Source of the DNA: Lachnospiraceae bacterium MD308
GTDB taxonomy: Bacteria > Bacillota > Clostridia > Lachnospirales > Lachnospiraceae
Direction: 5' to 3'
Length of the DNA stretch: 64,000 bases
Assembly: GCA_000403475.2 (NCBI GenBank)
Contig: KE159797.1
Span: 124,001-188,000 of the forward strand
The translations under genes were made by a program, and so were the position numbers. The notes under the pieces are model-generated. The model was not told the origin of the DNA. It was given only the letters and a program-made list of their open reading frames with translations, and did not search any database. Of this stretch, positions 1,511 through 64,000 are shown piece after piece. The stretch's first letter is position 1, and the number at the start of each line of letters is the position of its first letter.

Positions 1511-1543
1511 AATATTTCCTCCTTTGTTTCAATTGGTGAAATT

Positions 1544-1582
1544 TCATATGATATACTGTACTTCCCCCAACTTACGCTGTTC
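1544..1582 (-). pseudogene. hsdS remnant (start of a target-recognition domain)
   Basis: Between the DUF cassette and hsdR, the minus strand reads EQRKLGEV followed by a few residues and a stop. EQRKL is the motif that opens each target-recognition domain of the hsdS gene at 2.7-3.8 kb. Eighteen bases (1566-1583) are identical to hsdS DNA near 3222-3239. It looks like a scrap of a second or earlier hsdS copy left by recombination. Confidence 0.55.
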
Positions 1583-1651
1583 CGAAACGTTTCTCTCTCT
1601 TTTGGATAATCCCCAACACTTACGATGATAAGGAGTTATAACCCCTTATAC

Positions 1652-1882
1652 TTATATTTCTGCCTGAATAATATGCCCAAAATTCATCTCGTCTTTGAAA
1701 AGATCGTATATATATCCTGAACTTTCCAAATACAAACCTGTTTCCTTATCTTGCAGCTTTTCAAATACTTCCGAATTATAAAATTTATTCATTGCTTCAT
1801 CGTATTCAATATTCTGATCTGTGGCAAGCATATCAACAATATCCTGAACTATATATTCTATTAATTGGTCTTGTTTACTCAT
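1652..1882 (-). CDS. Small acidic hypothetical protein, third gene of the DUF3791/DUF3990 cassette
   Basis: This is a 76-residue acidic protein (many D/E, no signal peptide or membrane segment) of unknown function. Its ATG overlaps the stop of the upstream DUF3990 pseudogene (ATGA overlap), so translation is probably coupled. The coupling point sits next to a run of ten C (ten G on the coding strand), so slippage there could affect its expression. The position after DUF3791 and DUF3990 resembles small accessory genes seen with that pair. No function is proposed. Confidence 0.6.
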   Translation of the reverse strand: MSKQDQLIEYIVQDIVDMLATDQNIEYDEAMNKFYNSEVFEKLQDKETGLYLESSGYIYDLFKDEMNFGHIIQAEI

Positions 1883-2294
1883 ACTAACCCCCCCCCCACC
1901 TTTCGCAAAAGCCTAATCCCTTTTTCCGTGTGAAAAGAATATTGTGAAGATGTTTTCTTATATATCATTCCTTTCAGTAATGTCTCAAAATCAATAATTT
2001 CATTTTCATACTGACGAAATAGTAATGCCATATTATCATCTGCGACAGGACCGATAGTCGTTTGTATTCCAAAATCCTTAATTTTAAGACCTGACATTTT
2101 TCTGAAGTCATCCTGTATTTCAAAAGTATTTACGACTGGAGAACTCCATAAATTCTAGACACTCTTTTCGCCATCTGTTTTGCTTGTTCTTTTATATCTG
2201 TTAAATAAAAGCCCTTTCCAAAATCTTTATAAGGTCTACACATTGCTAAATTGATACTTTCTATCACAACATTACTTCCATGGTATAATCTCAT
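1879..2294 (-). pseudogene. DUF3990 protein, frameshifted and internally deleted
   Basis: The first frame starts at ATG 2292-2294 (MRLYHGSNVVIES) and keeps the DFGKGFYLT motif of DUF3990, then stops at 2130 after 54 residues. The homology resumes in another frame (PVVNTFEI) and continues through IGPVADDN and QYSFHTEKGIRLLRK, which are C-terminal DUF3990 motifs. Restoring one base near the GGAGTT at about 2145 would rejoin the frames. Compared with my memory of the family, about 35-40 residues are also missing between LKIKDFG and IGPVADDN. DUF3990 is considered ADP-ribosyltransferase-like; that is family knowledge, not visible here. The gene is very likely inactive. It overlaps DUF3791 upstream by ATGA and the small gene downstream. 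Confidence 0.75.
1888..1897. repeat. Homopolymer run of 10 C (G10 on the coding strand)
   Basis: Ten consecutive C lie at the 3' end of the DUF3990 pseudogene, encoding GGG just before its stop and just before the start codon of the next gene. Runs of this length are prone to slippage. A change of one base would alter the reading frame that couples the two genes. Confidence 0.9.
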
Positions 2295-2509
2295 AGCACA
2301 CCTCCGTTTTTACGGCATAATATTCCTAAATCTTCCACTATTGTTCCAAAATCTAATGTGTGTTCCACTTCATAATTTTCTTTTATAAAAGCAATGCCTT
2401 TAAATTGAAAAAGATAACGGAATGATTCTTGTATACTGAGATTATGCTGTTGAGCAAATTCATTTACACACGCAACGGTAAAACCAATCTTTTTTTTCTG
2501 TTCACTCAT
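2291..2509 (-). CDS. DUF3791 domain protein
   Basis: This 72-residue soluble protein matches the DUF3791 pattern: an N-terminal helix with CVNEFA, a central YLFQFKGIAFI and C-terminal HTLDFGTIVEDL. DUF3791 genes typically sit directly upstream of DUF3990, as here with an ATGA overlap. The pair behaves like a small linked module, possibly toxin-antitoxin-like, but the role is not established. The ATG is preceded by GGAGG at the usual distance. It is inserted between hsdS and hsdR in the restriction operon. Confidence 0.75.
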   Translation of the reverse strand: MSEQKKKIGFTVACVNEFAQQHNLSIQESFRYLFQFKGIAFIKENYEVEHTLDFGTIVEDLGILCRKNGGVL

Positions 2510-2539
2510 TCAAAACCTCCCTCTTTTCTATTCTTTTTA

Positions 2540-2659
2540 CTATTCACATCCATTTAACGAATACCGAAGCACATCGTAAGCCATACTGTTTTTTAAAGCA
2601 TCACTCTGCGTATAATATATTCTTTTACCAGTCTGATTTTTCTTCAAAATCTTATCAAT
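2540..2659 (-). other. Short open stretch after hsdS, possible gene fragment
   Basis: After the hsdS stop, the same frame stays open for about 39 codons (KRIYYTQSDALKNSMAYDVL...) to a TAG. It has no convincing start codon or ribosome binding site. It may be a remnant of a small gene, or chance. Nothing else was seen in the hsdS-DUF3791 gap. Confidence 0.2.
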
Positions 2660-2662
2660 TAT

Positions 2663-3823
2663 TTAAACAAACATATTTTGCAACATATATTTCTTGATTT
2701 TCACTAATTCATCACACTTACGCTGGTGAAGGGTGATGAGCGAATCCAGACAAGAAAAATACTTTCCTATTTTCATTTGTTCTTCCATATCTTGTGGTAT
2801 TATCAATCTTGTATTGAAAAAATCGATTGGTGCAATGTTTAGCAAACCATGATTTCTCGCACCTTCAGCCGCAATTTCATGAATACCCTTATGCCACAAA
2901 TTTGTTGTATAATATGATACCAAAAAATCTGAATTGATCTCAGTTTTTTCTTTGATAGCAAATACTATGTAAAGTGTTGATAAAACCCCATTTTCGTATT
3001 TATCCAATCGCTTTATTGCACCCCACGGAGCATCTGTAGATGTACTTTTATTATAAGCAAATTCTCCATTCTGAATAAGATAATAACCGCTAACATCTTT
3101 GCTTGCCACGCGCTTATCAAAAAATTCATTTTGATCTATCAAACCATGCTGTGCAGATATTGTTAATGGTAACTCAGATATTAAATCATAATTTTTTCTA
3201 GTAACTCTTTCAACTAAATCTCCCAACTTACGCTGTTCCCAATCTTCTGTAAATCCTTCAAATCGAATTTCTGGAACTTTCATCCCATTTTGTGGAAACA
3301 TTTTTTGAAGCATATATTTTTTTAATTTTTTAGTCTCATCACACTTACGCTGGAGAAGGGTGATGAGATGATCGAGATGGTAAAAATAAGTGCCAATTTG
3401 CTTTCTTTCATTTTCAGAAACAGGCATAGCAATTTTTTGTTCCTTTAATTCACTTGCTTTCACCAGAGGTTGCCCTGTTCCGAATGAAAGTTTTTTTATA
3501 TTAAAATTCTGCAAAGTGTAGTAAACGAAATCAAGCGGCTTTCCCTGAATAAACACCGTATTATCACTAATTTTCACCTTTCCTGAATGTCTGTAAAGTT
3601 CTCCAGCATTTGCTCCAACACGAGCAGTTAATATAAAATCCCCCTCATAATCATAAGAATCATCATACCCAATTACAGAAGTCGAACCGAGGATTTCATA
3701 ATTACCCGATTCTGAAACTGTAAATTTGCTCTTCCCAGTATCAATAGAAGATACTTCTTCGATTAGCTTACGCTGTTCCCAATCTTCTGTAAATCCTTTA
3801 AAGCGAATTTTAGGTTTTCCCAT
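2663..3823 (-). CDS. hsdS: Type I restriction enzyme specificity subunit
   Basis: This subunit recognises the two halves of the target site and directs both HsdM and HsdR. At 386 residues it has the classic two-repeat build: FKGFTEDWEQRKL opens target-recognition domain 1, a central conserved helix (YFYHLDHLITLLQRKCDE) separates the halves, FEGFTEDWEQRKL opens domain 2, and YFSCLDSLITLHQRKCDE closes the protein. The ATG at 3821-3823 is preferred over the upstream in-frame GTG at 3830-3832 because GAGGGG sits 8 nt before it. hsdM ends 5 bp upstream, so the two are co-transcribed. The paired conserved blocks are nearly identical at DNA level, which allows domain exchange by recombination. Confidence 0.93.
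   Translation of the reverse strand: MGKPKIRFKGFTEDWEQRKLIEEVSSIDTGKSKFTVSESGNYEILGSTSVIGYDDSYDYEGDFILTARVGANAGELYRHSGKVKISDNTVFIQGKPLDFVYYTLQNFNIKKLSFGTGQPLVKASELKEQKIAMPVSENERKQIGTYFYHLDHLITLLQRKCDETKKLKKYMLQKMFPQNGMKVPEIRFEGFTEDWEQRKLGDLVERVTRKNYDLISELPLTISAQHGLIDQNEFFDKRVASKDVSGYYLIQNGEFAYNKSTSTDAPWGAIKRLDKYENGVLSTLYIVFAIKEKTEINSDFLVSYYTTNLWHKGIHEIAAEGARNHGLLNIAPIDFFNTRLIIPQDMEEQMKIGKYFSCLDSLITLHQRKCDELVKIKKYMLQNMFV
3227..3258. repeat. hsdS internal direct repeat, copy 1 (32 bp)
   Basis: These 32 bp, coding for the EDWEQRK block, are identical to 3767-3798, 540 bp away in the same orientation. A second pair, 2709-2740 and 3336-3367 (the helix with QRKCDE), matches at all but one position. 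A partial copy also lies at 1566-1583. Confidence 0.9.
3767..3798. repeat. hsdS internal direct repeat, copy 2 (32 bp)
   Basis: Identical to 3227-3258. It lies at the start of target-recognition domain 1. Confidence 0.9.
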
Positions 3824-3828
3824 ATTTA

Positions 3829-5427
3829 TCACCCCTCAATCATTTCAACAAGACAGTTTATAGATGACATAATATCTTGATCAGAAGATGTTAACCCCTT
3901 TAAGTAAGATAACACTTCATTCTGTGTCTTTTTTATCTCGTCATCAGTCTGTTTCATTTCTGTCAAAAGTTCATTTAAATTAATCTCTTCTTCTTTTTCA
4001 AAATTATCCACATACCTTGGAATATTAAGGTTGAAATCGTTCTTCTCAATATCTTCAAAGCTGGCAAGATAAGATTCCTTGTCTATTGTTTCTCGTTTGT
4101 GATACAAATCTACAATGGCATCTATATGCTCGTCTGTCATTGTATTTTGTTTTTTACCCTTATCAAATTTTTTCGAAGCGTCTATAAACAAGACGTCTCT
4201 TCCATCTCTGTGTTTCTTTAAAACAACGATACAAGTTGGAATTGATGTATTAAAAAATAAATTTGCCGGTAATCCAATGATTGCATAAATATTTCCAGAA
4301 CGTAATAATTTTTCTCGAATTTTTCCTTCTGCCGCTCCTCTGAACAACACGCCATGCGGTAATACAATTGACATTGTTCCATTATTTTTCAGATGATACA
4401 GACCATGTAACAGGAAAGCATAATCAGCTTTTGACTTCGGCGCCAGAACTCCATAATCGCTAAAACGTTCATCTTGCAGAAAACCAGCGGCTGCACTCCA
4501 TTTTGCTGAATATGGCGGATTCATCAATACCATATTAAAATCAGTTTCTTCTTCCGTTGGCCAATCACTGTCTAAAGTATCGCCATTTCTCAGTCTTTGA
4601 TTTTCCGGTGCAATACCATGCAAAAACATGTTCATGCGTGCCAGATTATATGTAGATGTCATCAACTCTTGTCCGTAATATTTAATATAATTTGGCTCTA
4701 GCGCATATTTTTTAGCATTCAATAAAAGAGAACCCGAACCCATACACGGATCATAAACGGACAAGCCTTTTTTACTCTCCTGCCCAGAAATAGCAATTCT
4801 GGTCAATATTTTGGAAACAGCCTGCGGCGTGTAGAATTCACCAGCTTTTTTTCCAGTTTCAGACGCAAATTGGCCAATCAAATACTCATAAGCATTTCCT
4901 AAAACATCTGTATCTGTATTCAATAAATCTGCTTTATCAATTTCTTTTAAGAGACTGGCAATTGTGTCACTTTGCTTTTGGTCACCCGTTCCCAAGCGAT
5001 TGGAATACAAATCAATATCTGTAAATAAATCCGCAAATAACGGATCGCTTTGTTCAATATTATTAAATGCCTTTTGTAATTGCTCACGGTTAAAAGAATT
5101 ATTTCGCGCTGCCTCCGCAAAATTTGTATAAGTTAATTCCGGTTCAATCACATAATGACAAGATGATTTTATTTCATCTTTCAATTCTTCTGCACTTTCA
5201 TCTTTCAAAGCATCAATATATGCATTCAAAGCAATTTTTAATGTTTCTGGCTTTTCATCATAAATCAAATCATAAACCTTTATTAAAAAAGAATCTGATA
5301 AATACTTATAAAAAACAATCCCTAAAAGATAGTCTTTATATTCATTTGCATCCATTTTTGAACGTAATATATCTGCTCCGCTCCATAATACGCTAATCAA
5401 ATCTTTACTGTTTTCCTGCTCCGCCAT
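3829..5427 (-). CDS. hsdM: Type I restriction enzyme M subunit, N6-adenine methyltransferase
   Basis: This is the DNA adenine methyltransferase of the type I complex, using S-adenosylmethionine. At 532 residues it has an N-terminal HsdM helical domain, motif I DPCMGSGS starting near residue 226 (AdoMet binding) and motif IV NPPY near 303 (catalysis). The start at ATG 5425-5427 (MAEQENSK) has GGAGG 8 nt upstream; the longer open frame to 5526 overlaps the preceding gene and lacks such a site. It ends 5 bp before the hsdS ATG. The frame is intact. Confidence 0.95.
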   Translation of the reverse strand: MAEQENSKDLISVLWSGADILRSKMDANEYKDYLLGIVFYKYLSDSFLIKVYDLIYDEKPETLKIALNAYIDALKDESAEELKDEIKSSCHYVIEPELTYTNFAEAARNNSFNREQLQKAFNNIEQSDPLFADLFTDIDLYSNRLGTGDQKQSDTIASLLKEIDKADLLNTDTDVLGNAYEYLIGQFASETGKKAGEFYTPQAVSKILTRIAISGQESKKGLSVYDPCMGSGSLLLNAKKYALEPNYIKYYGQELMTSTYNLARMNMFLHGIAPENQRLRNGDTLDSDWPTEEETDFNMVLMNPPYSAKWSAAAGFLQDERFSDYGVLAPKSKADYAFLLHGLYHLKNNGTMSIVLPHGVLFRGAAEGKIREKLLRSGNIYAIIGLPANLFFNTSIPTCIVVLKKHRDGRDVLFIDASKKFDKGKKQNTMTDEHIDAIVDLYHKRETIDKESYLASFEDIEKNDFNLNIPRYVDNFEKEEEINLNELLTEMKQTDDEIKKTQNEVLSYLKGLTSSDQDIMSSINCLVEMIEG

Positions 5428-5462
5428 TCTATTATCCTCCATATTATGTCTGCTATTTTGTT

Positions 5463-7217
5463 CTAATCTTGCCCTTTCCCAAACCGTACCTCGCAATCCT
5501 TTCGGAAAAATGATATCCCATAACAATCAATCTTACGATATCCCTCCGCACGCAGTTCTTCCATATATCTTTTATCATATATTTGCTGCAACGCCTTTTC
5601 TGCATCATTTTCCAAATCAGTGATCGAACCAGATACTTTTAATTCTAAAACAAATGATCTTCCTCTAAGAGACGGGCTTTTCACTAGAATATCAGAACGA
5701 CCATTTCCCATTTCACGATTCGATTTCACCAGATAATTCTCACTCTGGCTTAATATTCCTGTCAGAAATGCATGATAAAAGCAGACACTTGAGTTCTGTC
5801 TTTTAGAACTCTTAGTGGTCGCTTTCCCTGTGGGCAAGTTTTCCGCACTATCATAAAAACTAATGGTACGAAAGAGCTGACCATTTAATATATCTGTCAT
5901 CTTCTGGGTATCCCCCTCTTCCATTGCCAGATACAGATCATGAAAATCTTCTTTCTTTATAACAGCTTTCAGCCAATTCAGAATCGTATTTTGATAAATT
6001 GTTTTTACTTCTATATTAGGTATACGCGCTCGTAAAAAGATAGAAGATTCCTTAAAATATTCACTCTCTTTTGTAAGATACCCTGTAAAATAGAGGAAAT
6101 TCCACAAGTTCTCTCCGTTACTATACATATCCTCATAGGTAACTTCTTCATGAACTTGGATGTCTAAAGTTCCTCCCTCTAAGAGCCTTTCAATCTGCCC
6201 CTTTGTTTCACGGTCAGCTCTGACTATCAACTCTTTTATAATGTCGTTAGAACTGGTATTAATCCAATAGGGATGTGGAAATGCTCCTACATCTGAATAT
6301 AGATCATATAAAAACTTAATCACGCTCCATGGGTTATAAACTTCCATATCACCAAATAAATATCCATCATACCATTCTTTCATTGTCGAAAAACGGCTTT
6401 CCACTTCATAATAGGACATCATCCGGTGAACTTCTTCCTCCGTAAACCCAAAATGCTCACTATATTTTTTATCAAGTATAGAAATAATATTAAGATGATT
6501 CAATCCGGTAAATATACTCTCCTTTGAAATCCGCAGGCACCCTGTTATAACGGCAAACTGGAGATACTGGTTTGTCTTTAACACAGACTCAAATAATGAG
6601 CGGATAAAATCTACCATTTCTTCATAGAATCCTCGAAAATAAGCGCCCTCAAGCGGAACATCATATTCATCTATCAAGACAACTGTTTTTTTATCCGTCG
6701 CCAGATAAAGGCAATTACATAAAAATACTAACGCTCCGGAATAATCATCATATTCTGCCTTCCGGTCGGCAATCCTCTCAAACAGTTTCTTATCCTCTCC
6801 ACTAATTTTCTCGCTCGTCAATATATACTGATGTCTCTGGAATTCGTCTGCGATTGCATTCCTCATCTTACCATATGCTGATTCAAAAGTTGGTTGCTTT
6901 GCTGATTTAAGCGTCAGATTAATGACCGGATACTCTCCCATATGTTCCGTATATTCTTTGCCTTGCTCCATAATTTTCAAGCTACAAAAAAGAGATTTAT
7001 TCTCCTCATTTTTCTTCGCATCCCCTGTATCCTCAAAAAAGTAACGGAGCATACTTAGATTCAGTGTCTTTCCAAATCTTCTTGGACGAGTAAACAAATT
7101 TACTTTTCCCTTTAAGTCCAGCAATTCTTTTATGAACATTGTCTTATCTACATAGTAATATCCAGATTTTACGATATCTTCAAAATTTTCAACACCAACG
7201 GGCAACGCTTTTTTCAC
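5463..7217 (-). CDS. AAA-ATPase-like protein with C-terminal PD-(D/E)XK nuclease-like domain
   Basis: This 584-residue protein has the AAA_ATPase-like domain (PF09820 type): opening motif [11 protein letters not shown], a Walker-A-like RPRRFGKT at about 44-51, and VVLIDEYD near 180. It ends in a PDDEXK_9-like domain with GRSDILV...VLELKVS. The family is very common in Clostridia and Bacteroidetes; its function is unknown, and defence or mobile-element roles are only guesses. Several GTG codons are possible starts; GTG 7215-7217 (KKALPVG) has GGAGG at good spacing. It is the first gene downstream of the operon promoter and ends 36 bp before hsdM, so it is probably co-expressed with the restriction system. 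Confidence 0.85.
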
Positions 7218-56362: not shown

Positions 56363-58057
56363 CTAAATTATAATCTCACAAGTGTACGCCTCATAGTTTA
56401 TCGGGTTTCTATGCATATAATCAAATAACACCGTTTTATTCAGCACCGGAAAATACTCCAAATGTGTCATCTTGCGCATCTGATTTTTATCATATGCCTC
56501 ATAACCTTTCAAATATCTGTGCCGTATCACTTCTTCTTCATAAAATTGCCGCATTTTCTCTTTTCCGAGAGCATTTTTCCCCGCAAAAATCGGCCTCGTC
56601 TTAGCGTTCTCCCTCAGATAATAATCATAAACCAAAAGCTCTTTAAAGGTCTCTGCCTGCCCGCAGATATCATCGATAAAACCAAGTAAAATCTCATATC
56701 TCGCACTTCTTTTATGCTGAATATGGCAAAGATTATTTTTCTTGTAATATTGCCATAAGCCTTCAAACATATAAAAGGGAGAAGACACCTTCTTTTCTAA
56801 TGCAGATAATGTATGTTCAAACTGTCTGCTGTTATAATAGACCTCCACCATCTCTTCAATGCCTTTTAGCTTTTGCACATCTCTGTAAGACAGCCATTTG
56901 GTGTACAGCACTTCATAAGGAGGCTCACTTTTACAGGCCAATTCATACTCGCCCTTTTTTTCTTCCATATAAGAGCCCTTTAAAACTTTCAGAAACCCTA
57001 ACTGAAGCTGGTGAGGCTTCAAAGCATAGACATCATCAAAGGACTTAGAAAAGCTTTCCATATCTTCAAAAGGAAGCCCTGCGATCAAATCCAAATGCTG
57101 ATGGATATTTCCCATATTCTGTATGGTTCTGACAATCTGTGAAACTTTTTGGAAATCCATTGTTCTTTTGATTTCCCTTATCGTTTTTTCATTCGTGGAC
57201 TGCACGCCAATCTCTAACTGTATCAGCCCCGGCCGCATCGTCTTTATCAATGCAAGCGCTTCTTCATTCAGCAAATCCGCTGCTATCTCAAAATGAAAAT
57301 TCGTAATGCCGTTATCATGTTCTGCGATATACTTCCAAATCTCCATCGCATGATTGCGGCTGCAATTAAAAGTCCGGTCAACGAACTTTACTTGCGGCAC
57401 CTCTTTCTTTAAGAAAACGCCAAGCTCCTGCTTTACAATCGGAAGGCTCCTGAATCTCAACCTCTTATCAACAGAAGAAAGACAATAACTACAGGAAAAC
57501 GGACATCCCCTGCTTGTCTCATAATAAATAATCTTATGCTCGAACGCTTCTATATCCTCATAGATAAACGGAACCTCATCTAAATTTATCGGCTCACGCC
57601 ATGTATTTTCACAAATCGTCCCATCCTCACCTCGAAACGTAATACCCTCAATATCTTCAAGCGCACTGCCCCCGCACAACTCAGCAAAGGTAAGCTCCCC
57701 TTCCCCCCGCATCACTCCCTTCACTTCCGGAAGCTGCATAAGAATATCTTCGGCATCATAAGATACTTCCGGGCCTCCAAGCCAGAACACTGTATCGGGA
57801 CAGACTTTTCCAAGCTCGCGCACAACAGACTTCACATAATCAATATTCCAGATGTAACAAGAAAAACACACCATATCCGCCGCCTTTTCATAGATATCTC
57901 TCAGGATATCATCCTTCTGCTGATTAATGGTATATTCTGCAATTTCAATCTCAAGCTCCCTTCTATGCACATGCTTTTGGGCATATGCACGCAGAGTATG
58001 TACCGCAAGGTTGGAATGTATATATTTGGCGTTGATAGCGACAAGTAATATCTTCAT
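56363..58057 (-). CDS. B12-binding-domain radical SAM protein (DUF4080)
   Basis: This 564-residue protein has an N-terminal cobalamin-binding-type domain (about 1-140: LLVAINAKYIHSNLAVHTLR, WLGGPEVSY), a radical SAM core with the 4Fe-4S motif CPFSCSYC (CX3CX2C) and a C-terminal DUF4080 region (about 370-560). The B12-binding DxHxxG motif is not evident, so cobalamin may not bind. The substrate is unknown. Such proteins often modify small molecules or RNA. Confidence 0.88.
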   Translation of the reverse strand: MKILLVAINAKYIHSNLAVHTLRAYAQKHVHRRELEIEIAEYTINQQKDDILRDIYEKAADMVCFSCYIWNIDYVKSVVRELGKVCPDTVFWLGGPEVSYDAEDILMQLPEVKGVMRGEGELTFAELCGGSALEDIEGITFRGEDGTICENTWREPINLDEVPFIYEDIEAFEHKIIYYETSRGCPFSCSYCLSSVDKRLRFRSLPIVKQELGVFLKKEVPQVKFVDRTFNCSRNHAMEIWKYIAEHDNGITNFHFEIAADLLNEEALALIKTMRPGLIQLEIGVQSTNEKTIREIKRTMDFQKVSQIVRTIQNMGNIHQHLDLIAGLPFEDMESFSKSFDDVYALKPHQLQLGFLKVLKGSYMEEKKGEYELACKSEPPYEVLYTKWLSYRDVQKLKGIEEMVEVYYNSRQFEHTLSALEKKVSSPFYMFEGLWQYYKKNNLCHIQHKRSARYEILLGFIDDICGQAETFKELLVYDYYLRENAKTRPIFAGKNALGKEKMRQFYEEEVIRHRYLKGYEAYDKNQMRKMTHLEYFPVLNKTVLFDYMHRNPINYEAYTCEIII

Positions 58058-58154
58058 ATATTAAAGCCCCCTCTCTATTCAAATTACCTCATTCTGTTCA
58101 CAATTGCAACAAACAACTTCACTTGAATTACCGGCAATTTCTCTTTCCCTCATA

Positions 58155-58212
58155 TTGAAGTCAGCCCCTTTTTCATGTATAATCTACCCATAGAAAGAAA
58201 CACTTTTTCTAT
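58155..58212 (+). promoter_or_regulatory. Promoter and candidate operator of the ParDE-like pair
   Basis: TTGAAG (58155-58160), 17 bp and TATAAT (58178-58183) form the promoter. The inverted repeat ATAGAAA-N9-TTTCTAT (58190-58212) lies just downstream at the transcript start. It is a likely autoregulatory site for the antitoxin. Confidence 0.6.
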
Positions 58213-58241
58213 AAACCCTAATCATGAAAGGAGGCTTTCCC

Positions 58242-58484
58242 ATGAGCACTTTAGACGAAACTATATCCATGCTCGAAGCAATGCCGGAAGATGCGAGAAT
58301 CAAAGTCATGGAATTCACCCAGAAACTGTTCACATCCAGGAAACCCGCAAACCCATTCGTCCCGGCCAGTCAGGAGCAGATCCTTTCCGACCTTGCCGAA
58401 TCGCGCCAGCAGATTTCCGATGGCAAAGGCCTTGACATGGAAGACGCTCTGAAAAGGATGGGTAAACAGCATGGATTCATTTGA
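58242..58484 (+). CDS. Antitoxin-like protein paired with a ParE remnant
   Basis: Protein of 80 residues: an N-terminal helical segment (STLDETISMLEAMPEDARIKVMEF) and a C-terminal tail (LAESRQQISDGKGLDMEDALKRMG) of the kind that wraps a RelE/ParE toxin. ATG 58242 has AGGAGG 8 nt upstream. It overlaps the toxin start by 14 bp, the normal layout. The toxin partner is truncated, so the antitoxin is probably an orphan. Confidence 0.7.
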   Translation: MSTLDETISMLEAMPEDARIKVMEFTQKLFTSRKPANPFVPASQEQILSDLAESRQQISDGKGLDMEDALKRMGKQHGFI

Positions 58485-58581
58485 CGTGATCATCTCACCA
58501 AGAGCATTGTCCCAGCTAAACGAATACATTGATTACTTACAGTACACCCTGCTGAATGACCAGGCGGCCTACAATGTATGA
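58471..58581 (+). pseudogene. ParE/RelE-family toxin, truncated to 36 residues
   Basis: The frame MDSFDVIISPRALSQLNEYIDYL...AAYNV is the N-terminal third of a ParE-type toxin, then TGA. Full-length relatives have about 100 residues. The homology ends at about 58579, where sequence of the oppositely oriented Abi gene begins, so a deletion removed the rest. Confidence 0.75.
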
Positions 58582-58999
58582 CTTGTCCATATATATAGTC
58601 AATAACTTTTTTAACAAATGTATATGCTGTTTTTATACTCTCATTTTTATCAAAATACTCTTTATTTTTTACTGCACGACCATCTATAAATTCTTGTATT
58701 TGCTTAAATCTTTTCTCTTTTACAACATCTACATTGATAAATAAGTTGTAAACATAAAGTAACGAAACAAAATCATACAAAAACTTATTACTCAATTTGC
58801 TCTTTCTCATAGACGCACCTATTCCGTCTATATTTGAAACAAATTTTATAGACGGCTTGTTTGTTCCTTTTTGCAGTTTATTTATCAGACAATTACTATG
58901 AGCAGTCGCATTTCTTAAATCTCTAATAGAATACAACAACTCACTATCCTTTAAACACCCCGAGTATCTCTCCGTATAATATTCACACAACTTAACCAT
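58578..58999 (-). pseudogene. Abi-family (Abi_2-like, HEPN) gene, truncated at both ends
   Basis: The readable part (LCEYYTERY, LLYSIRDLRNATAHSNCLIN, SKLSNKFLYDFVSLLYVYNLF, TAYTFVKKVIDYIYGQ) matches the C-terminal half of Abi-family phage-abortive proteins. It includes RNATAH, an R-x4-H HEPN motif. In-frame TAA TGA stops lie directly before its ATG, so the N-terminal half is missing. At 58578-58582 the frame runs into antisense of the ParE remnant (residues RPPGHSAGC onward, to 58490), so the natural end is lost too. Confidence 0.65.
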
Positions 59000-59116
59000 A
59001 TCTCATTAATTATATTTGTACATAAGCAATTATTTTAATTATAGCAACAGTTTGTCAGTTACTTGTTAGTTATGTGTCAGTTATCCATAATGATTTATAA
59101 AATCACACGTTGATTT

Positions 59117-59683
59117 TTACTCCATATCTGCCACAAATTTTTCATACCACTTCGGCACATTATGCGAAACCCTAACCGGGTTTCCATTCTTATATATTGC
59201 AAACCTGCGAAATTCTATTGTGTTATCATAGAATACTGTCAGATTGCTTTCCGGCAAAACCTTTTTCAAATTATCAAATGTCTCCGCAAATCTTCTTTCT
59301 ATATCCTGCTCTGCAATACCATGACCGCCCTGTTTTATACGCCTGGCTACTCTTTCTTTTGCAATATCTGCATTCTCAACCCCGATATAATGCAGTTCTA
59401 TAAAATATCCTCTTTTCTTTGCTTTTGCTATATTGCTTAAAATGGATTTCCCACATAATGTAGTCTCCTGATTAAATGTAATGCCCTCATCAAAATATCT
59501 GGCAATTTTCCTTACCGCCATTTTTCCCGCAGTCATAACGTCGATCATATTTCTCCAATCGCCAAATTCTCTCAATATTTCATCTGTATTCACTCTTGGT
59601 ATGTCATGCAGACTTTGCAATGACTGATACAAAGTTGATTTACCTGCCCCATTGACTCCTGCTACTAAAATATATTTTTTCAC
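59117..59683 (-). CDS. Zeta-toxin-like P-loop kinase
   Basis: This 188-residue P-loop protein has Walker A GVNGAGKST (about 8-16), PRVNTDEILREFGDW, TFNQETTLCGKSIL and an arginine-rich lid (ERVARRIKQGGHGI). The fold and motifs resemble zeta toxins, which phosphorylate UDP-GlcNAc to block cell-wall synthesis, and related AAA_33 kinases. GTG start 59681-59683 overlaps the stop of a 59-residue partner gene by 1 bp, giving toxin-antitoxin-like coupling. Whether it is toxic is inferred. Confidence 0.75.
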   Translation of the reverse strand: MKKYILVAGVNGAGKSTLYQSLQSLHDIPRVNTDEILREFGDWRNMIDVMTAGKMAVRKIARYFDEGITFNQETTLCGKSILSNIAKAKKRGYFIELHYIGVENADIAKERVARRIKQGGHGIAEQDIERRFAETFDNLKKVLPESNLTVFYDNTIEFRRFAIYKNGNPVRVSHNVPKWYEKFVADME

Positions 59684-59862
59684 TAAAAGAGATTCCTTTC
59701 GATTACCTGCCTCTGCTTCTTTTGCAGTAGAAAATCGCCAACCATTTCATAAAAATTTCTTTGTTCTTCCGTTTCGGCCTCCAGTACAAGCTGTAAAGTG
59801 TCTTCCGGCTGCAGTTTTTGTATATCTTCATAGATTTTTTCATACTTTTTAACATCACACAT
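59683..59862 (-). CDS. 59-residue partner of the zeta-like kinase, candidate antitoxin
   Basis: ATG 59860-59862 opens a 59-codon frame (MCDVKKYEKIYEDIQKLQPE...) rich in Glu/Gln/Lys and probably all helical. GGAGG lies 7 nt upstream. A promoter lies at 59898-59926. Its TAG shares a base with the kinase GTG. By position and helical character it is a candidate epsilon-like antitoxin; there is no clear sequence match. Confidence 0.65.
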   Translation of the reverse strand: MCDVKKYEKIYEDIQKLQPEDTLQLVLEAETEEQRNFYEMVGDFLLQKKQRQVIERNLF

Positions 59863-59897
59863 AACAACACCTCCATAGTTCGTATTACATTAAATTT

Positions 59898-59926
59898 ATT
59901 ATACCCCTATTTTCTTGAAAAGTTAA
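59898..59926 (-). promoter_or_regulatory. Promoter of the zeta-like kinase module
   Basis: On the minus strand, TTAACT (59921-59926), 17 bp and TATAAT (59898-59903) lie about 36 bp before the start codon. Confidence 0.6.
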
Positions 59927-59929
59927 GAT

Positions 59930-59953
59930 AAAAACTCCGCAGGAAAACCTGCG
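59930..59953 (-). terminator. Terminator downstream of toxN
   Basis: On the minus strand, CGCAGG-TTTT-CCTGCG is followed by GAGTTTTTAT. It closes the toxN transcript, just before the kinase-module promoter. Confidence 0.75.
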
Positions 59954-59988
59954 AAGGCCATATTCTTGAATCTGTATAATTTTTCTGC

Positions 59989-60435
59989 CTATCTCAAGAG
60001 AAAATTCCAGAGAATTATTTTTTCTTGATTTTTACGAATAAAAATGATTTCATTCTGCACCAAATCTTTATATGTACAATCTTGCTTGTTTTCGATGTCA
60101 TAAAGCAGAAGCTCTGATTGCGGGACAGGTATCATATGACTGATTCGTAAAGTTCCCTTTAACTCTTTCTGTCCCTTTGAATTTTTCACTACAATCCTCA
60201 TAATCGGAACAATGCTCTTTCTAATCACTTTTTTCTCACTGGCAATCTGATAATCCGATTCTTTGGGCGAAGACATCGGTATATAATAATGATAGTTTTC
60301 CAAACATATCACTGTGACAACATACTTTCGAGTATGAATTCTCGTCGTTTCCTTATTGGAATATACATTTGGGAACACTTTCCGCAAATATTCTATATAT
60401 TCATCTGACATACTATACAGTTTAAATTCTTCCAT
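59989..60435 (-). CDS. toxN: Type III toxin-antitoxin endoribonuclease (ToxN/AbiQ/CptN-like)
   Basis: This 148-residue protein resembles the ToxN family: FKLYSMSDEYIEYLRKVFPNV at the start, the strand motif NYHYYIPMSSPKESDY with S55-S56-P57-K58 (equivalent to the TSPK active region of ToxN), KGTLRISHMIPVPQSELLLYD and NEIIFIRKNQEKII at the end. ToxN proteins are RNases held inactive by small RNAs cut from a repeat array just upstream. Exactly that layout is present here: 38-nt repeats, a terminator, then this gene. ATG 60435 has AAAGGGATAGG upstream. No promoter of its own was found. Confidence 0.82.
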   Translation of the reverse strand: MEEFKLYSMSDEYIEYLRKVFPNVYSNKETTRIHTRKYVVTVICLENYHYYIPMSSPKESDYQIASEKKVIRKSIVPIMRIVVKNSKGQKELKGTLRISHMIPVPQSELLLYDIENKQDCTYKDLVQNEIIFIRKNQEKIILWNFLLR

Positions 60436-60448
60436 CCTATCCCTTTCT

Positions 60449-60475
60449 AAAAAAACAAGGGAGCATTACTGCTCC
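60449..60475 (-). terminator. Terminator between antitoxin repeats and toxN
   Basis: On the minus strand, GGAGCA-GTAA-TGCTCC is followed by CTTGTTTTTTT. In type III systems a weak terminator at this place lets most transcripts end after the antitoxin RNA, with little read-through into the toxin. Confidence 0.85.
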
Positions 60476-60479
60476 TTAT

Positions 60480-60536
60480 GAGTTTAAAATCTCCCACTAT
60501 CTGGCAGGGACTCTCCCGAGTTTATAATCTTCCATA
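60480..60536 (-). ncRNA. toxI: Type III antitoxin repeat array, copy A (truncated)
   Basis: Reading 5' to 3' on the minus strand: the last 19 nt of a repeat (60518-60536), then one complete 38-nt repeat (60480-60517) that is identical to repeat 2 of array B. The array breaks at about 60536, where a 102-bp copy of the higA 3' end starts. No promoter is visible directly upstream. Confidence 0.7.
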
Positions 60537-60636
60537 CCCATATGATTTTATTGTGTTGCATACCATCTACCACAACCATTGCCCTGCATTCTAATTTATT
60601 GTCACAGATATTTTTTTCCCAAGCGATTCCGCTATT
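60535..60636. repeat. 102-bp duplication of the higA 3' end, copy A
   Basis: It matches 61816-61917 without gaps and with few substitutions. It contains the last codons of the higA antitoxin (IAESLGKKISVT) and 45 bp beyond the stop. Here it is a fragment joined to the broken repeat array upstream of toxN. Confidence 0.85.
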
Positions 60637-60758
60637 CAAAAAATGTGGGAAGTTATACAACTTCCCACTCGTTAATGTTCATCTCTTTATGGATTAATTA
60701 CCGAAGGTTAATGGAGACCTTCACTTTAAATTCAACTGAATTTCTTACTTATATTATA
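60637..60758 (-). ncRNA. Candidate small RNA with promoter and terminator
   Basis: On the minus strand, a TATAAT (60753-60758) is followed by about 110 nt that end in a perfect 10-bp hairpin (GTGGGAAGTT/AACTTCCCAC, 60645-60668) and ATTTTTTG. Inside is a second stem, GAAGGT/ACCTTC. There is no open reading frame and no clear -35 box. It could be a small RNA or another decayed antitoxin unit. Confidence 0.35.
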
Positions 60759-60807
60759 CTCATTTTGTGCTAAATATCTACTGGCATTTTCTACAAAAAT
60801 CAGATAA

Positions 60808-60837
60808 AATCCCCAAAACGCATAAGTTCTGGGGATT
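60808..60837 (-). terminator. Terminator-like hairpin downstream of the DUF2442 gene
   Basis: AATCCCC pairs with GGGGATT around a 16-nt loop, then TTATCTGATTTTTG on the minus strand. Between it and the DUF2442 stop, the minus strand has a short open stretch ending SEFSKR-stop with no start. This is probably a gene scrap. Confidence 0.4.
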
Positions 60838-60979
60838 GAAATACATATTTGATATTCCGTTTGCCTATCTCTTGGAGAATTCCGAACGCCATAAATACGC
60901 TATTTTTAAGCTGATTGTCAGTTATGTGTTCGTTACCCATATACGCTCATATGTGCGCATACTGTCAGCAAACCATATA

Positions 60980-61267
60980 TTATGCTATCTTTTCCACCGC
61001 CATCGGTAACTCATACAGTGTGTCCGGGTCAAAATCCAAACATTTCGTATTATCTCGGCTCCCCCCCCCCCCCCCCCCGATATCCCATGCCAATGTATCA
61101 TTCATCACTGTACAGGCTTCTTTAAAAACAGTGATATCTTTCACTGGACGAAATGCCTCTTTCTCAATCATTTGAGTCATATCATAACATACGATTTTAC
61201 CATCTTCAAAGTACACATATACCGAATAATTTTCCATTGGTATTACCTGCACAACCTTTGGAAACAT
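60980..61267 (-). CDS. DUF2442 protein containing six consecutive Gly from a G18 tract
   Basis: Small protein of 95 residues: FPKVVQVIPMENYSVYVYFEDGKIVCYDMT and FRPVKDITVFKEACTVMNDTLAWDIG are the DUF2442 core, and NTKCLDFDPDTLYE the usual end. Between them is GGGGGG encoded by 18 uninterrupted G, where relatives have one or two residues. ATG 61265-61267 with GAGGTG upstream is preferred over GTG 61276. DUF2442 genes are often paired with DUF4160, whose remnant lies directly upstream. Function unknown. Confidence 0.75.
   Translation of the reverse strand: MFPKVVQVIPMENYSVYVYFEDGKIVCYDMTQMIEKEAFRPVKDITVFKEACTVMNDTLAWDIGGGGGGSRDNTKCLDFDPDTLYELPMAVEKIA
61061..61078. repeat. Homopolymer run of 18 C (G18 on the coding strand)
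   Basis: Eighteen consecutive C in an AT-rich region, inside the DUF2442 gene. The length is a multiple of three, so the frame is open in this copy. Such a run is a classic slippage site, and also a place where sequencing or assembly may miscount. Confidence 0.95.
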
Positions 61268-61283
61268 AACATTCACCTCACTT

Positions 61284-61454
61284 TTAAACTAACGGATTGA
61301 TTCGGTTCATCGGTTTTCCATCCTTTGATAATTCCCAATTCTGCATCAGCTCATCCTGATGTAAAACACACCATGCCAAAATCAATTTGAGTTGCCGTGA
61401 TGGCAATGCACCTTTTATACACCTTGCTGCATCAATTTCAATAATCGCCTTATT
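61284..61454 (-). pseudogene. DUF4160 gene, 5'-truncated
   Basis: The minus strand reads KAIIEIDAARCIKGALPSRQLK...ILAWCVLHQDELMQNWELSKDGKP to a TAA at 61284. This is the C-terminal two thirds of a DUF4160 protein. A TGA lies in frame a few codons upstream and the N-terminal part is absent. It stands directly before DUF2442, its usual partner. Confidence 0.65.
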
Positions 61455-61463
61455 TCATTCTAT

Positions 61464-61489
61464 AGCATATATAGTTGACTATATATGCT
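61464..61489. repeat. Perfect 12-bp-arm palindrome
   Basis: AGCATATATAGT-TG-ACTATATATGCT. It lies at the junction where the DUF4160 homology stops and the antitoxin terminator begins. It may be an operator or a recombination site. Confidence 0.7.
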
Positions 61490-61520
61490 TGACAATATAA
61501 GTTTACCACAGTTATCGCCT

Positions 61521-61548
61521 AAAAAAATAAGGGAGCATTACCGCTCCC
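61521..61548 (-). terminator. Terminator of antitoxin array B
   Basis: On the minus strand, GGGAGC-N6-GCTCCC is followed by TTATTTTTTT. It closely resembles the terminator in front of toxN, but here no toxin gene follows. Confidence 0.85.
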
Positions 61549-61645
61549 AATGAGTTTAAAATCTCCCACTATCTGGCAGGGACTCTCCCGAGTTTAAAAT
61601 CTTCCACTTATCTGGCAGGAACTCTCCAAAGATAGTTTCCTATCT
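61549..61645 (-). ncRNA. toxI: Type III antitoxin-like repeat array, copy B (orphan)
   Basis: Promoter-driven array. From the expected start near 61645 the RNA begins with a GATAG-GAAA-CTATC hairpin. A 39-nt repeat follows (61590-61628), then a 38-nt repeat (61552-61589), each containing CTGCCAGATA and ending TTTTAAACTC. The terminator follows directly. Repeat 2 is identical to the complete repeat of array A. This is a complete antitoxin transcription unit about 1.1 kb upstream of toxN, separated from it by the DUF4160/DUF2442 remnants. Confidence 0.75.
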
Positions 61646-61651
61646 GTTTTT

Positions 61652-61680
61652 ATTATATGTAATTTTTTTATAAAAATCAA
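61652..61680 (-). promoter_or_regulatory. Promoter of antitoxin array B
   Basis: On the minus strand, TTGATT (61675-61680), 17 bp and TATAAT (61652-61657). The predicted start is a few bases before the first hairpin of the array. Confidence 0.8.
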
Positions 61681-61681
61681 C

Positions 61682-61725
61682 AAAAATATTACGAAACCCC
61701 TGAAAAATAAATCGTCAGGAGTTTC
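61682..61725 (-). terminator. Probable terminator of the higBA transcript
   Basis: GAAAC-x-CCTGA pairs with TCAGG-x-GTTTC (61693-61703 and 61715-61725), with TATTTTTG following on the minus strand after a short gap. The stretch 61726-61871 between it and higA holds no gene. Confidence 0.5.
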
Positions 61726-61815
61726 ATGATGCATATAAACAATTTCTTATCTCTTAGATAATTCCAAACCCTTATTTTCCGGCATTTTCAAGGAATTTGT
61801 CAGTTACCTGTCACT

Positions 61816-61917
61816 TACCTAAATGATTTTACAGTGTTGCATAACATCTATCACAACAATTGCCCTGCATTCTAATTTAATGTCACAGATATTTTTTTCC
61901 CAAGCGATTCCGCTATT
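61816..61917. repeat. 102-bp higA 3' end, copy B (the parent copy)
   Basis: This is the intact context of the segment duplicated at 60535-60636. It covers the last codons and downstream region of higA. Confidence 0.85.
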
Positions 61918-62156
61918 TTAGCAAGAAAATCCAAGCTGGGATTATAATTTCCACTTTCCAGCCTGGAAATATTGCTTTTCTGTGTACCTACTCTTTTTGC
62001 AAGTTCCGCCTGTGTTATATTTTGTTCTTTCCTTGCTCTTATAATCTGCTCAATCGCTTCATATCTGGGTTTTAATTTTTCATATTCTATTTTAAACTCT
62101 TCATTCTTAAGCATATCGGATTTCATTTCTTCAAAAGATATTCCTGCTTTACTCAT
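61872..62156 (-). CDS. higA: XRE-family antitoxin (HigA-like)
   Basis: Protein of 94 residues: an N-terminal helical segment that probably binds the toxin, then a Cro/C1 helix-turn-helix (about 38-90: RARKEQNITQAELAKRVGTQKSNISRLESG). It follows the toxin gene with an ATGA overlap, the HigBA order (toxin first). It probably represses its own promoter, where a matching inverted repeat is visible at 62541-62558. Confidence 0.88.
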   Translation of the reverse strand: MSKAGISFEEMKSDMLKNEEFKIEYEKLKPRYEAIEQIIRARKEQNITQAELAKRVGTQKSNISRLESGNYNPSLDFLAKIAESLGKKISVTLN

Positions 62157-62521
62157 GATTCAGACCTCCTTTTATAGTCTTCCATATATTTTCTTGCTCT
62201 CTTTATTTCATTTTCCGGTGTCTTCATGGTCTTTTTAACAAACCCATGCAACAGCACAAACTTATTGTTATGATATGTAAAGTAAAATATTCTTGCAATA
62301 TCGCTTGAAAACTTTATCCGTAATTCATACAACCCTTTATTATCTTTTCCTTTTATTGGTTTTACATATGGCTCTTTCAATTCAGGGCCTAACTGCTTTA
62401 ATAGCTCAATATCGCTAAAAGCTTTAGCCCTTAGTTTTGGACTCAGTGAATATAGAAAATCTTGCACTGGAATTTTTCCACTCTCTTTCATGTAGAAATC
62501 TAATTCAATTATTTTAATCAC
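62153..62521 (-). CDS. higB: HigB-type toxin (phage Gp49-like, RelE superfamily)
   Basis: Protein of 122 residues with the Gp49-like signature: ESGKIPVQDFLYSLSPKLRAKAF, KPIKGKDNKGLYELRIKFSSDIARIFYFTY and FVLLHGFVKKTMKTPENEIKRA. Predicted ribosome-dependent mRNA endonuclease. GTG start at 62521; the ribosome binding site is close to it and the exact start is uncertain. First gene of the pair. Confidence 0.88.
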   Translation of the reverse strand: MIKIIELDFYMKESGKIPVQDFLYSLSPKLRAKAFSDIELLKQLGPELKEPYVKPIKGKDNKGLYELRIKFSSDIARIFYFTYHNNKFVLLHGFVKKTMKTPENEIKRARKYMEDYKRRSES

Positions 62522-62538
62522 TTCCTTTTCTTGTTACA

Positions 62539-62567
62539 ATGTTATCATATACGATAACTTTTGTCAA
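62539..62567 (-). promoter_or_regulatory. higBA promoter with embedded operator
   Basis: On the minus strand, TTGACA (62562-62567), 17 bp and TAACAT (62539-62544). The inverted repeat GTTATC-N6-GATAAC (62541-62558) overlaps the -10 box and the spacer, as expected for autorepression by the antitoxin. Confidence 0.75.
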
Positions 62568-62591
62568 ACACATTATACTTTTCATCATAAC

Positions 62592-62629
62592 AAAAAAACC
62601 CACAAACAAATTCTGTCTGTGGGTTTTCC
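62592..62629 (-). terminator. Terminator of the rplM-rpsI operon
   Basis: On the minus strand, AAAACCCACAGACAG pairs with the downstream TTTGTGGGTTTT arm, then TTTTG. It lies 26 bp after the rpsI stop. Confidence 0.85.
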
Positions 62630-62654
62630 ATATTTCCTGCTTGCAAATAACTGC

Positions 62655-63047
62655 TTATCTCTTAGAGAACTGCGGTGCTCTACGAGCTGCTTTGAGACCG
62701 TACTTCTTACGCTCTTTCATACGTGGGTCACGTGTCAGATAGCCGGCTTTCTTAAGGGTCGGTCTATAATCTGCGTCTGCTTCAAGAAGGGCTCTGGAGA
62801 TACCATGACGGATTGCTCCTGCCTGTCCTGTATATCCGCCGCCTTTTACGTTAACCATCACATCAAACTTTCCTTCTGTCTCTGTCAGAACTAACGGCTG
62901 ACGAACGATAACTTTCAACGTCTCAAGTCCGAGATACTCATCAATGTTTCTTCCATTTATCGTAATGTTGCCTGTACCTGCTGTCAAATATACTCTTGCA
63001 ACTGATTTTTTTCTTCTTCCTGTTCCATAGAATTTTGCTTTAGCCAC
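62655..63047 (-). CDS. rpsI: 30S ribosomal protein S9
   Basis: 130 residues, full length. [20 protein letters not shown] at the N-terminus, [20 protein letters not shown] in the middle, and the invariant C-terminal tail ending QFSKR that reaches the P-site tRNA. Follows rplM by 26 bp. Confidence 0.98.
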
Positions 63048-63073
63048 TGTAATATCCTCCTTTCAACCTTTCC

Positions 63074-63502
63074 TTAAAATTTCAGCTCTACCGGCTTCTG
63101 AGCCTGCTGCTCATGATCTGGTCCGGCATATACGTGAAGCTTCTTAATCATAGCTCTTCCCAAAGGTCCTTTCGGAAGCATTCCCTTTACGGCAAGCTCA
63201 ACCACTTTCTCCGGTTTCTTAGCCATCATCTCTGCAAGTGTAGTCTCTTTCATTCCTCCTACATAGTCAGAGTGATTATAATAAATCTTCTGGCTCATCT
63301 TTTTGCCTGTCACTTTAACTTTTTCAGCATTCACTACGATTACATAATCACCCGTATCAACGTGCGGTGTAAATTCCGGCTTATTTTTGCCTCTCAAAAC
63401 CTTAGCCACTTCAGATGACAAACGTCCTAATGTACATCCGGCAGCATCAACTACATACCATTTCTTTTCAACCTTATCTGGATTTGCCATATAAGTTTTC
63501 AT
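63074..63502 (-). CDS. rplM: 50S ribosomal protein L13
   Basis: 142 residues, full length. [27 protein letters not shown] at the N-terminus, [18 protein letters not shown], and [22 protein letters not shown]. First gene of the rplM-rpsI operon, with AGGAGG before ATG. Confidence 0.98.
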
Positions 63503-63555
63503 TGGTTTACCTCCTGTGAATCATTCATACATCTTTAATCAACTATATTCAGAAT

Positions 63556-63587
63556 CAGTAAATCTCCGGGGCTATGGCGGTTTACTG
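63556..63587 (-). promoter_or_regulatory. Structured leader of the rplM-rpsI mRNA
   Basis: On the minus strand, CAGTAAA and TTTACTG enclose a GC-rich inner part (CCGCCATAGCCCCGG) in the 5' leader. It could be the binding site for autogenous control by L13; that is inferred from the position only. Confidence 0.4.
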
Positions 63588-63611
63588 TTTCTCCTTTTGT
63601 CATACTGACTC

Positions 63612-63640
63612 ATTATATTATACGGGTCCTGGTGTGTCAA
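63612..63640 (-). promoter_or_regulatory. Promoter of rplM-rpsI
   Basis: On the minus strand, TTGACA (63635-63640), 17 bp and TATAAT (63612-63617). It is a perfect consensus sigma-A promoter, as expected for ribosomal protein genes. The leader to rplM is about 105 nt. Confidence 0.9.
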
Positions 63641-63744
63641 CCGTTTTCCGGCAATTTTTTATGCTGTTTTTCCTTCTTTTTCCGGTATCCTGTGTTATAA
63701 TATTGTCACTTTGACTTTACAAATATTTTTTCGGAGGATGTGCG

Positions 63745-64000
63745 ATGCAAAAGAATATTGATATGCTAAATGGCCCGGTTCTTAAGTCACTTACGAAACT
63801 TGCCATCCCGATCATGGCAACCTCACTGATTCAAATGGCATACAACCTGACCGATATGATATGGATCGGCCGCATTGGAAGCAATGCTGTGGCTTCTGTC
63901 GGCGCTGCCGGCATGTTCATGTGGCTTTCCAATGGCCTTGCAGCCCTGCCTAAGATGGGAGGCCAGGTACATGTAGGGCATTGTCTCGGGGCAAAACGTC
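63745..64000 (+). CDS. MATE-family efflux transporter (partial, 3' end off the window)
   Basis: Eighty-five codons are visible: MQKNIDMLNGPVLKSLTKLA, then two hydrophobic helices with IPIMATSLIQMAYNLTDMIWIGRIG and SVGAAGMFMWLSNGL. These are typical of the first part of MATE multidrug/cation antiporters. GGAGG precedes the ATG by 7 nt. A TATAAT lies about 50 bp upstream without a clear -35 box. Divergent from rplM. Confidence 0.9.
   Translation, partial: MQKNIDMLNGPVLKSLTKLAIPIMATSLIQMAYNLTDMIWIGRIGSNAVASVGAAGMFMWLSNGLAALPKMGGQVHVGHCLGAKR

Follow-up and report, generated by a model that had tools for sequence, protein, structure and literature searches.

The toxN gene and its antitoxin array

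The window analysed here is a 64,000-nt stretch of DNA in which a toxN open reading frame (ORF) of 148 aa lies on the minus strand at 59989–60435, behind a short antitoxin array and a terminator; all window features described below lie on the same strand. The encoded protein matches Pfam family PF13958 at 5.7e-24, over positions 2–124 of the 159 in the profile, and the PADLOC AbiQ profile at 4.4e-31. Four chains of solved structures match it at E ≤ 1, all of them ToxN or AbiQ (best 2xd0, 4.2e-11), and NCBIfam gave no match at 0.1. It is the only PF13958 match in its own 4.46-Mb genome. An SSPK motif occupies residues 55–58 and a ribosome-binding-like site, AGAAAGGG, precedes the ATG. A first-pass annotation of this DNA had named the 148-residue ORF with its motif, the ToxN/AbiQ pattern, the ribosome binding site, a 38-nt repeat with part of another and a GC-hairpin terminator with seven T residues, and all of these were borne out. 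Its tentative placement of the system near CptIN was not: sequence searches point to ToxIN/AbiQ, with no CptN chain matched.

The protein is damaged in two respects. At 148 aa it is 33–37 residues shorter than the 181–185-aa proteins of four full-length relatives (L002, L006, L007, L009), and by its length and by the end of the profile match at position 124 of 159 it falls short of the full toxin fold with its C-terminal helices. This shortness had not been noted in the first pass. In addition, Val40 stands where all four full-length relatives have Gly, and it aligns, against solved structures, with Gly37 of ToxN, which forms a conserved cis-peptide in E. coli ToxN that is called crucial for the fold (PMC8860590). 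Where the toxN frame ends, a stretch at 59985–60004 resembles by eye the core sequence at the rpsI end (TTCTCTTGAGATAGGCAG compared with TTCTCTAAGAGATAAGCAG), and the sequences of relatives diverge from the window just ahead of it. An AlphaFold model of the 148-aa protein, made with five sequences, had a mean pLDDT of 38 and was unusable. By sequence, toxN can still be recognised as the gene of an RNA-cutting toxin of the ToxN/AbiQ family, but it is damaged.

The array ahead of toxN (array 1) consists of one full 38-nt unit (60480–60517) and the final 17 nt of a preceding unit (60518–60534) and is thus barely tandem. A hairpin at 60460–60475 followed by TTTTTTT separates it from toxN, which reproduces the array–terminator–toxin order of type III systems (PMC5086642). 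Terminator-like sites are enriched in 59900–61900 (six against a shuffle mean of 0.9); promoter-like sites overall, at 13 against 9.0 in shuffles (sd 2.9), are not above chance, which counts against the explanation preferred below. Over a 36-nt core, the unit of array 1 shows no difference from the second unit of a further array in the window (array 2) or from one unit in each of L006, L010 and L011. Self-comparison extends this likeness to the flanks: 60447–60534 is 94% identical to 61519–61606, and 60535–60636 is 92% identical over 102 nt to 61816–61917, so that a copy of the 3′ end of an HTH gene and its downstream DNA stands in place of the array 1 promoter and leader. Both copied segments abut in the toxN copy, but 209 nt separate them in the array 2 copy, where these 209 nt hold a copy of the rpsI-end core, most arm-like units, a promoter-like site, a leader hairpin and the start of the first unit. 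Relative to that second copy, a 209-nt deletion has removed the promoter, the leader and most of the first unit of array 1. No minus-strand promoter-like site was found in 60436–60752.

Could toxN and array 1 still form a working ToxIN pair, with the 148-aa protein cutting RNA and being restrained by the remaining 1.4 units or by array 2 in trans? The active-site positions are aligned (catalytic Lys33, Thr52, Ser53 and Lys55 with Arg36, Ser55, Ser56 and Lys58), Arg in place of Lys33 is found in E. coli clusters 4 and 5, the RNA-contacting residues given for E. coli ToxN stop at Arg122, ahead of the truncation (both PMC8860590), and array 2 could provide antitoxin in trans. These points are set against the loss of the C-terminal 33–37 residues, the Val at the Gly37 cis-peptide position, the shortened array and the missing promoter-like site close upstream. 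As for array length, 1.8 units are given as needed for AbiQ and 2.5 for ToxI of P. atrosepticum, and single-unit or short type III arrays are described as often insufficient (PMC5086642). A working pair is therefore doubtful, because the C terminus is truncated, a shared Gly is replaced by Val, promoter and leader are lost and only about 1.4 units remain; toxN and array 1 are probably not one, and an active pair of this kind is very improbable. The first-pass identification of a type III toxin–antitoxin locus consequently stands for the family and for the order of its parts, and falls for a functioning pair on account of the truncation, Val40, the 209-nt deletion and the residual array.

Orphan arrays in the window and in relatives

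Two further arrays, both overlooked in the first pass, lie nearby with no toxin gene behind them. Array 2 (61552–61627) repeats the array 1-type unit twice, at 39 and 38 nt (TRF score 131; self-BLAST E 3e-34). It has a terminator at 61531–61548 with no toxN behind it, a leader hairpin (AGATAGGAAACTATCT) at 61631–61646, identified by folding and by alignment with relatives, and a promoter-like site (TTGATT-17-TATAAT) at 61652–61680 that agrees with the consensus at 10 of 12 positions and matches in position that of relatives. Array 3 (60672–60719) is a single unit of a second specificity, with a terminator at 60645–60668, again with no toxin behind, and a promoter-like site at 60753–60780 (10 of 12 consensus positions, in a scan with a total not above chance). 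It shares 46 of 48 nt with units in locus L047 of genome G098, which precede a different ToxN (PF13958, 2.4e-41), and with units in L020, which precede a ToxN-like ORF truncated by the contig end; L020 lies on MT837915.1, a human-faecal contig labelled ‘Bacteriophage sp.’ and marked as unverified. Positions 1–5990 of MT837915.1 hold a two-unit array, the start of the ToxN-like ORF and, at the opposite end, an integrase-like fragment. Megablast of the region against phages gave a single match, of 92 nt, at array 3.

Elsewhere in the genome no other unit of the window type occurs at zero mismatches; repeat matches with at least one mismatch were rejected as chance after inspection of five loci (L015–L019). 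Five exact repeat matches in viral contigs, none with the 3′ half of the unit, were likewise rejected as chance; the window-type unit is thus carried by no viral contig in this search, which counts against the explanation preferred below. Rfam gave no match at E ≤ 1 in 58000–64000. Candidate structured RNAs upstream of ToxN have been listed for Clostridiales and Leptotrichia (PMC8040213) and may include the window-type unit. Among the literature titles and abstracts searched, no orphan type III arrays were found described, and such a description could still be in print.

Covariation gives evidence of structure in the unit. The alignment holds 19 distinct units chosen by hand, seven 34-nt rows that MAFFT had placed badly having been dropped and seven others added. 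A two-helix pseudoknot has standard pairs in 88.0% of cells and 14 two-sided changes, compared with 4.4 in shuffles (none of 500 reached 14) and at most four in slid controls. The support comes from helix 2 (columns 7–10 with 24–27), which is paired in 97.4% of cells. Helix 1 is weak: two of its pairs are invariant, the third is a non-standard A–G in 14 of 19 rows (the window-type units), and minimum-energy folding of arrays 1 and 2 is no better than that of shuffles (z −1.04 and −0.10); both results count against the preferred explanation. Folding energy gives some support, at z −2.95, where array 3 is taken together with its terminator. The pseudoknot is upheld by covariation and not by the folding energies of arrays 1 and 2 or by helix 1, and the comparison of 19 units supports one of its helices.

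Ten toxN relatives were fetched, all titled Lachnospiraceae. In addition to the four with full-length toxN and no stop, six (L003, L004, L005, L008, L010, L011) have an interrupted or truncated gene. One or two whole units lie upstream in nine of the ten relatives, the tenth (L002) offering only 68 nt of upstream DNA, and in each of the six whose toxN is interrupted, one or more complete units persist with no more than two mismatches. Single-unit arrays occur with interrupted toxN (L003, L005, L008) or in L007, and two-unit arrays in L006 and L009, the loci that combine a seemingly intact toxN with a readable array; it is suggestive, over nine loci only, that single-unit arrays track damaged toxN. 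The toxN of L007 is full length, encodes Leu in the second Ser position of the SSPK motif and stands behind a single-unit array, a combination of full-length gene and single unit that runs against the preferred explanation; its toxin is perhaps inactive.

Searches of 397 family genomes with the 18-nt core of the unit gave matches in 11, of which nine were judged real by inspection and two chance; the repeat-pattern matches L051 and L053 were rejected as chance, the 3′ half of the unit being absent. One of the nine is the window genome itself (G000). The array is followed by a broken toxN in G115, G353 and G266 and by an uninterrupted one in G268. G371 (L055) has a locus of two specificities, in which two window-type units are immediately followed by a second promoter-like site, three units of a different array and an uninterrupted ToxN. 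In G357, G009 and G166 the available DNA contains units that no toxN follows. The first two genomes have toxN on other contigs; G166 keeps a promoter-like region, leader, one unit and terminator in a genome with no PF13958 match. In G009 (L151), one diverged window-type unit (seven mismatches) precedes an ATPase-like gene pair, with no toxN there. Apart from these nine, G003, of the same genus as the window genome, retains two units and a terminator ahead of some 22 codons of toxN, and PF13958 has no match in it.

Retention of arrays can also be quantified by likeness between loci. In 20 of the 21 pairs formed by seven loci, DNA of the leader, array and terminator showed the greater likeness when set beside the first 225 nt of toxN, with means of 0.959 and 0.886. 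This comparison leaves out L144 (with it, 27 of 28 pairs), does not include L002 and L009, and excludes L006 since its leader pattern was not found. In the exceptional pair, L005–L010, toxN is the more alike of the two, which counts against the explanation preferred below. The greater likeness of arrays fits selection, but RNA and coding DNA provide no neutral control for each other, and RNA genes may be the more alike with no antidote role.

These data bear on the main rival to an antidote role, namely that the same damaged island is decaying neutrally, with orphan arrays as remnants still to erode and with toxins going first because their loss is harmless or advantageous. Damaged genes elsewhere in the island (a DhiT-like remnant and an HTH fragment), the single unit of array 3, the one and two mismatches in the units of L144 and the short target that an antitoxin RNA presents, by which retention is partly expected, all agree with such decay. 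It accounts less well for arrays retained in six of six relatives with interrupted toxN, for the greater likeness of array DNA in 20 of 21 pairs and for G166, where promoter-like site, leader, units and terminator persist with no toxN match. Neutral decay is a serious possibility that falls somewhat short of probable, and it is nearly as likely as the antidote reading.

A row of cassettes at the rpsI 3′ end

All three arrays lie in an island at the 3′ end of rpsI. The rpsI end itself (62656–62670) contains the original core site, and copies of this core at 61748–61762 and 60866–60880 form cassette borders. Tandem 11-bp arm-like units (GTAACTGACAN type) occur at 61797–61818, at 60915–60936 (one mismatch to the motif) and, as three units, at 59052–59084. 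The cores starting at 62656, 61748 and 60866, together with the arm-like units, amount to att-like borders at the rpsI 3′ end. Between these borders and around them lie a Gp49/RelE-like toxin (62153–62521; PF05973, 5.8e-26) and an HTH antitoxin-like protein (61872–62156; PF01381, 1.5e-15); the C-terminal remnant of a DhiT-like toxin ORF (61284–61406; NCBIfam DhiT 0.0012, below cut-off), which we take to be DUF4160 and which by eye has whole-length relatives in G020 and G001; and an antitoxin-like DUF2442 protein (60980–61276; PF10387 1.5e-6, above cut-off). The DUF2442 gene contains a tract of 18 G at 61061–61078 (GATATC-G18-AGCCGAG; TRF), where L008 has five G; the tract may be prone to slippage or phase variation, or may be an error of sequencing. 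Beyond toxN, a 59-aa entry of the ORF list (59683–59862) precedes a zeta-toxin-like P-loop protein (59117–59683; PF06414 1e-6, above cut-off). The two genes (59117–59862), which in G001 and G004 make up an rpsI cassette of their own, resemble a toxin–antitoxin pair of an uncharacterised kind. No integrase or relaxase was found among the ORFs between rpsI and 58000.

The borders recur with rpsI in other genomes. At up to two mismatches the 11-bp motif has four matches in its own genome, all in the island (reversed control, none), and a stricter form has six matches in five of the 397 genomes, all about 3 kb or less from an rpsI end or copy. An rpsI end lies within 3 kb upstream in six of the ten toxN relatives; L008 has arms and cores with rpsI out of reach, L005 has neither arms nor cores, and L002 and L009 begin at contig ends. 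A core copy follows the arms in L003, L006, L007, L100, L146 and the window. The content at the rpsI 3′ end differs among six congeneric genomes: in G001 the 59-aa/zeta-like pair, arms and core are succeeded by DhiT-like and DUF2442 genes and further arms; G004 carries the zeta-like pair, and its arms have diverged; G003 has a type III array with no arms found; G005 has the array 3 promoter region and other content, also with no arms found; and G002 lacks a cassette. In G000, G001, G003 and G005 there follows a conserved ORF of about 565 aa, a radical-SAM protein by eye, which is not found there in G002 or G004. One clean cassette is seen in G020 (rpsI, DhiT-like, DUF2442, arms, core), and DNA past its distal core resembles the post-rpsI DNA of cassette-free relatives. 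Among 30 family rpsI loci surveyed to a reach of 1.5 kb, of which 28 had at least 600 nt downstream, arms or core copies were found at two of the 28 (G000 and G020); cassettes are therefore uncommon or lie beyond the 1.5 kb surveyed, a count that does not favour the preferred explanation. No such cassettes at rpsI were found described in the literature titles and abstracts searched, although they could still be in print.

Integrases accompany the motif outside the island. The stricter motif occurs in 12 viral contigs, and in eight of these an integrase ORF lies 5–510 nt from it; all six of the eight that were Pfam-scanned are PF00589, and the integrases of L076 and L083 share their N-terminus with that of L077. 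In the other four contigs no integrase was found in the available DNA near the motif. G254 (L105) has two tandem ORFs (408 and 403 aa) that by eye encode tyrosine integrases; 140 nt past their end comes a copy of the rpsI end and, after it, three 11-bp units, which makes this a candidate autonomous element at the rpsI site. Tyrosine integrases of streptococcal integrative and conjugative elements (ICEs) and of IMESag-rpsI are documented to use the rpsI 3′ end as their site (PMC4701971, PMC5090054). When two integrases were searched against the window genome itself, their relatives there proved distant (best 1.1e-7 and 2.6e-16, 21% identity), the nearest at C3:198030, outside the window, which counts against the preferred explanation.

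On balance these observations make it somewhat probable that the cassettes were inserted by an integrase acting in trans. It is unlikely that they are ordinary, non-mobile accretions whose 11-bp units belong to some other element, such as regulator sites. Such accretion would agree with the absence of a visible integrase in the island, with the failure to find arms in G003 and G005 and with the divergence of those in G004. It fits poorly with the confinement of the motif to the island in its own genome, with its six of six matches near rpsI ends across 397 genomes, with the core after the arms at six loci including the window, with the likeness of the DNA past the distal core of G020 to the post-rpsI DNA of cassette-free relatives, and with the integrase ORFs beside the 11-bp units in eight of 12 viral contigs.

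Interpretation and comparison with known systems

The anatomy of the locus, read from its sequence, is very probably that of a damaged ToxN/AbiQ gene with a shortened array and two orphan antitoxin loci of two specificities in a cassette island at the rpsI end. Adding a role for the orphan loci as antidotes in trans gives the best overall explanation, which in its entirety has about as much in its favour as against it. Under this explanation, small toxin–antitoxin cassettes with no integrase of their own would enter the rpsI end through a trans-acting tyrosine integrase that uses the rpsI-end core as core site and the tandem 11-bp units as arm sites, and later deletions and mutations would remove toxins. 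Arrays 2 and 3 keep a promoter-like site, unit(s) and a terminator, and for that reason are proposed to give rise, still, to short RNAs with a pseudoknot. If a ToxN of matching specificity arrived, it would cut these RNAs and be bound by them, so that they would serve as trans antidotes to type III systems that mobile elements bring in. The pseudo-ToxI arrays of phage PhiTE, which suppress ToxN-mediated abortive infection, offer a precedent for trans action (PMC3475682); given this precedent and the insufficiency of short arrays, arrays 2 and 3 could neutralise a matching incoming ToxN. That the orphan arrays serve as antidotes at present, a function argued by analogy, is plausible while being less than probable.

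The locus alone would be a decayed member of a known family, and a truncated ToxN alone would be ordinary; what is new is its surroundings, namely orphan type III antitoxin loci within an integrase-less row of toxin–antitoxin cassettes at rpsI. A broader proposal is that the rpsI end in these gut Lachnospiraceae is a cassette bank, filled in trans by integrases of phage or ICE type, in which toxins are pruned and RNA immunity to several ToxN specificities is kept against incoming elements that carry type III systems for addiction or abortive infection; as a joint claim this is rather unlikely. The rpsI borders provide a simple rule for finding such cassettes and may explain the spread of small toxin–antitoxin loci with no mobility gene among gut Clostridia.

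Several known systems resemble parts of this arrangement. ToxIN and AbiQ share the PF13958 toxin, tandem units, a terminator before the toxin and a pseudoknot unit; unlike them, the window has a truncated toxin, a lost promoter and leader and two adjoining orphan arrays, with units of 38–39 nt compared with 34–36 nt in three ToxIN examples (PMC5086642). CptIN of Eubacterium rectale has the type III layout and comes from related Clostridia, but CptN is absent from the solved-structure matches, and membership was rejected since only ToxN/AbiQ chains match at E ≤ 1. IMESag-rpsI and streptococcal ICEs resemble the island in site-specific insertion at the rpsI 3′ end, and IMESag-rpsI combines a toxin–antitoxin pair with a PF00589 integrase (PMC5090054, PMC4701971). 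It is 9.5 kb long with integrase and relaxase, whereas the cassettes here are about 0.7–2 kb with no integrase seen; the island has the att-like borders of an integrative mobilizable element but, among the ORFs between rpsI and 58000, neither the integrase nor the relaxase. Integron gene cassettes also form rows of small, toxin–antitoxin-rich cassettes, but the borders in the window are copies of a host gene end and tandem 11-bp units. Like PhiTE pseudo-ToxI, with its toxin-less antitoxin units able to act on ToxN elsewhere (PMC3475682), the orphan arrays stand apart from a toxin; they differ in being chromosomal, in their place in an rpsI 3′ island, in their two specificities and in their terminators. 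Anti-addiction and orphan type II antitoxins likewise retain an antitoxin when the toxin is gone (PMC7354431), whereas the antitoxin in the window is an RNA; if arrays are kept where toxins are broken in several species, they would be an RNA counterpart of anti-addiction antitoxins.
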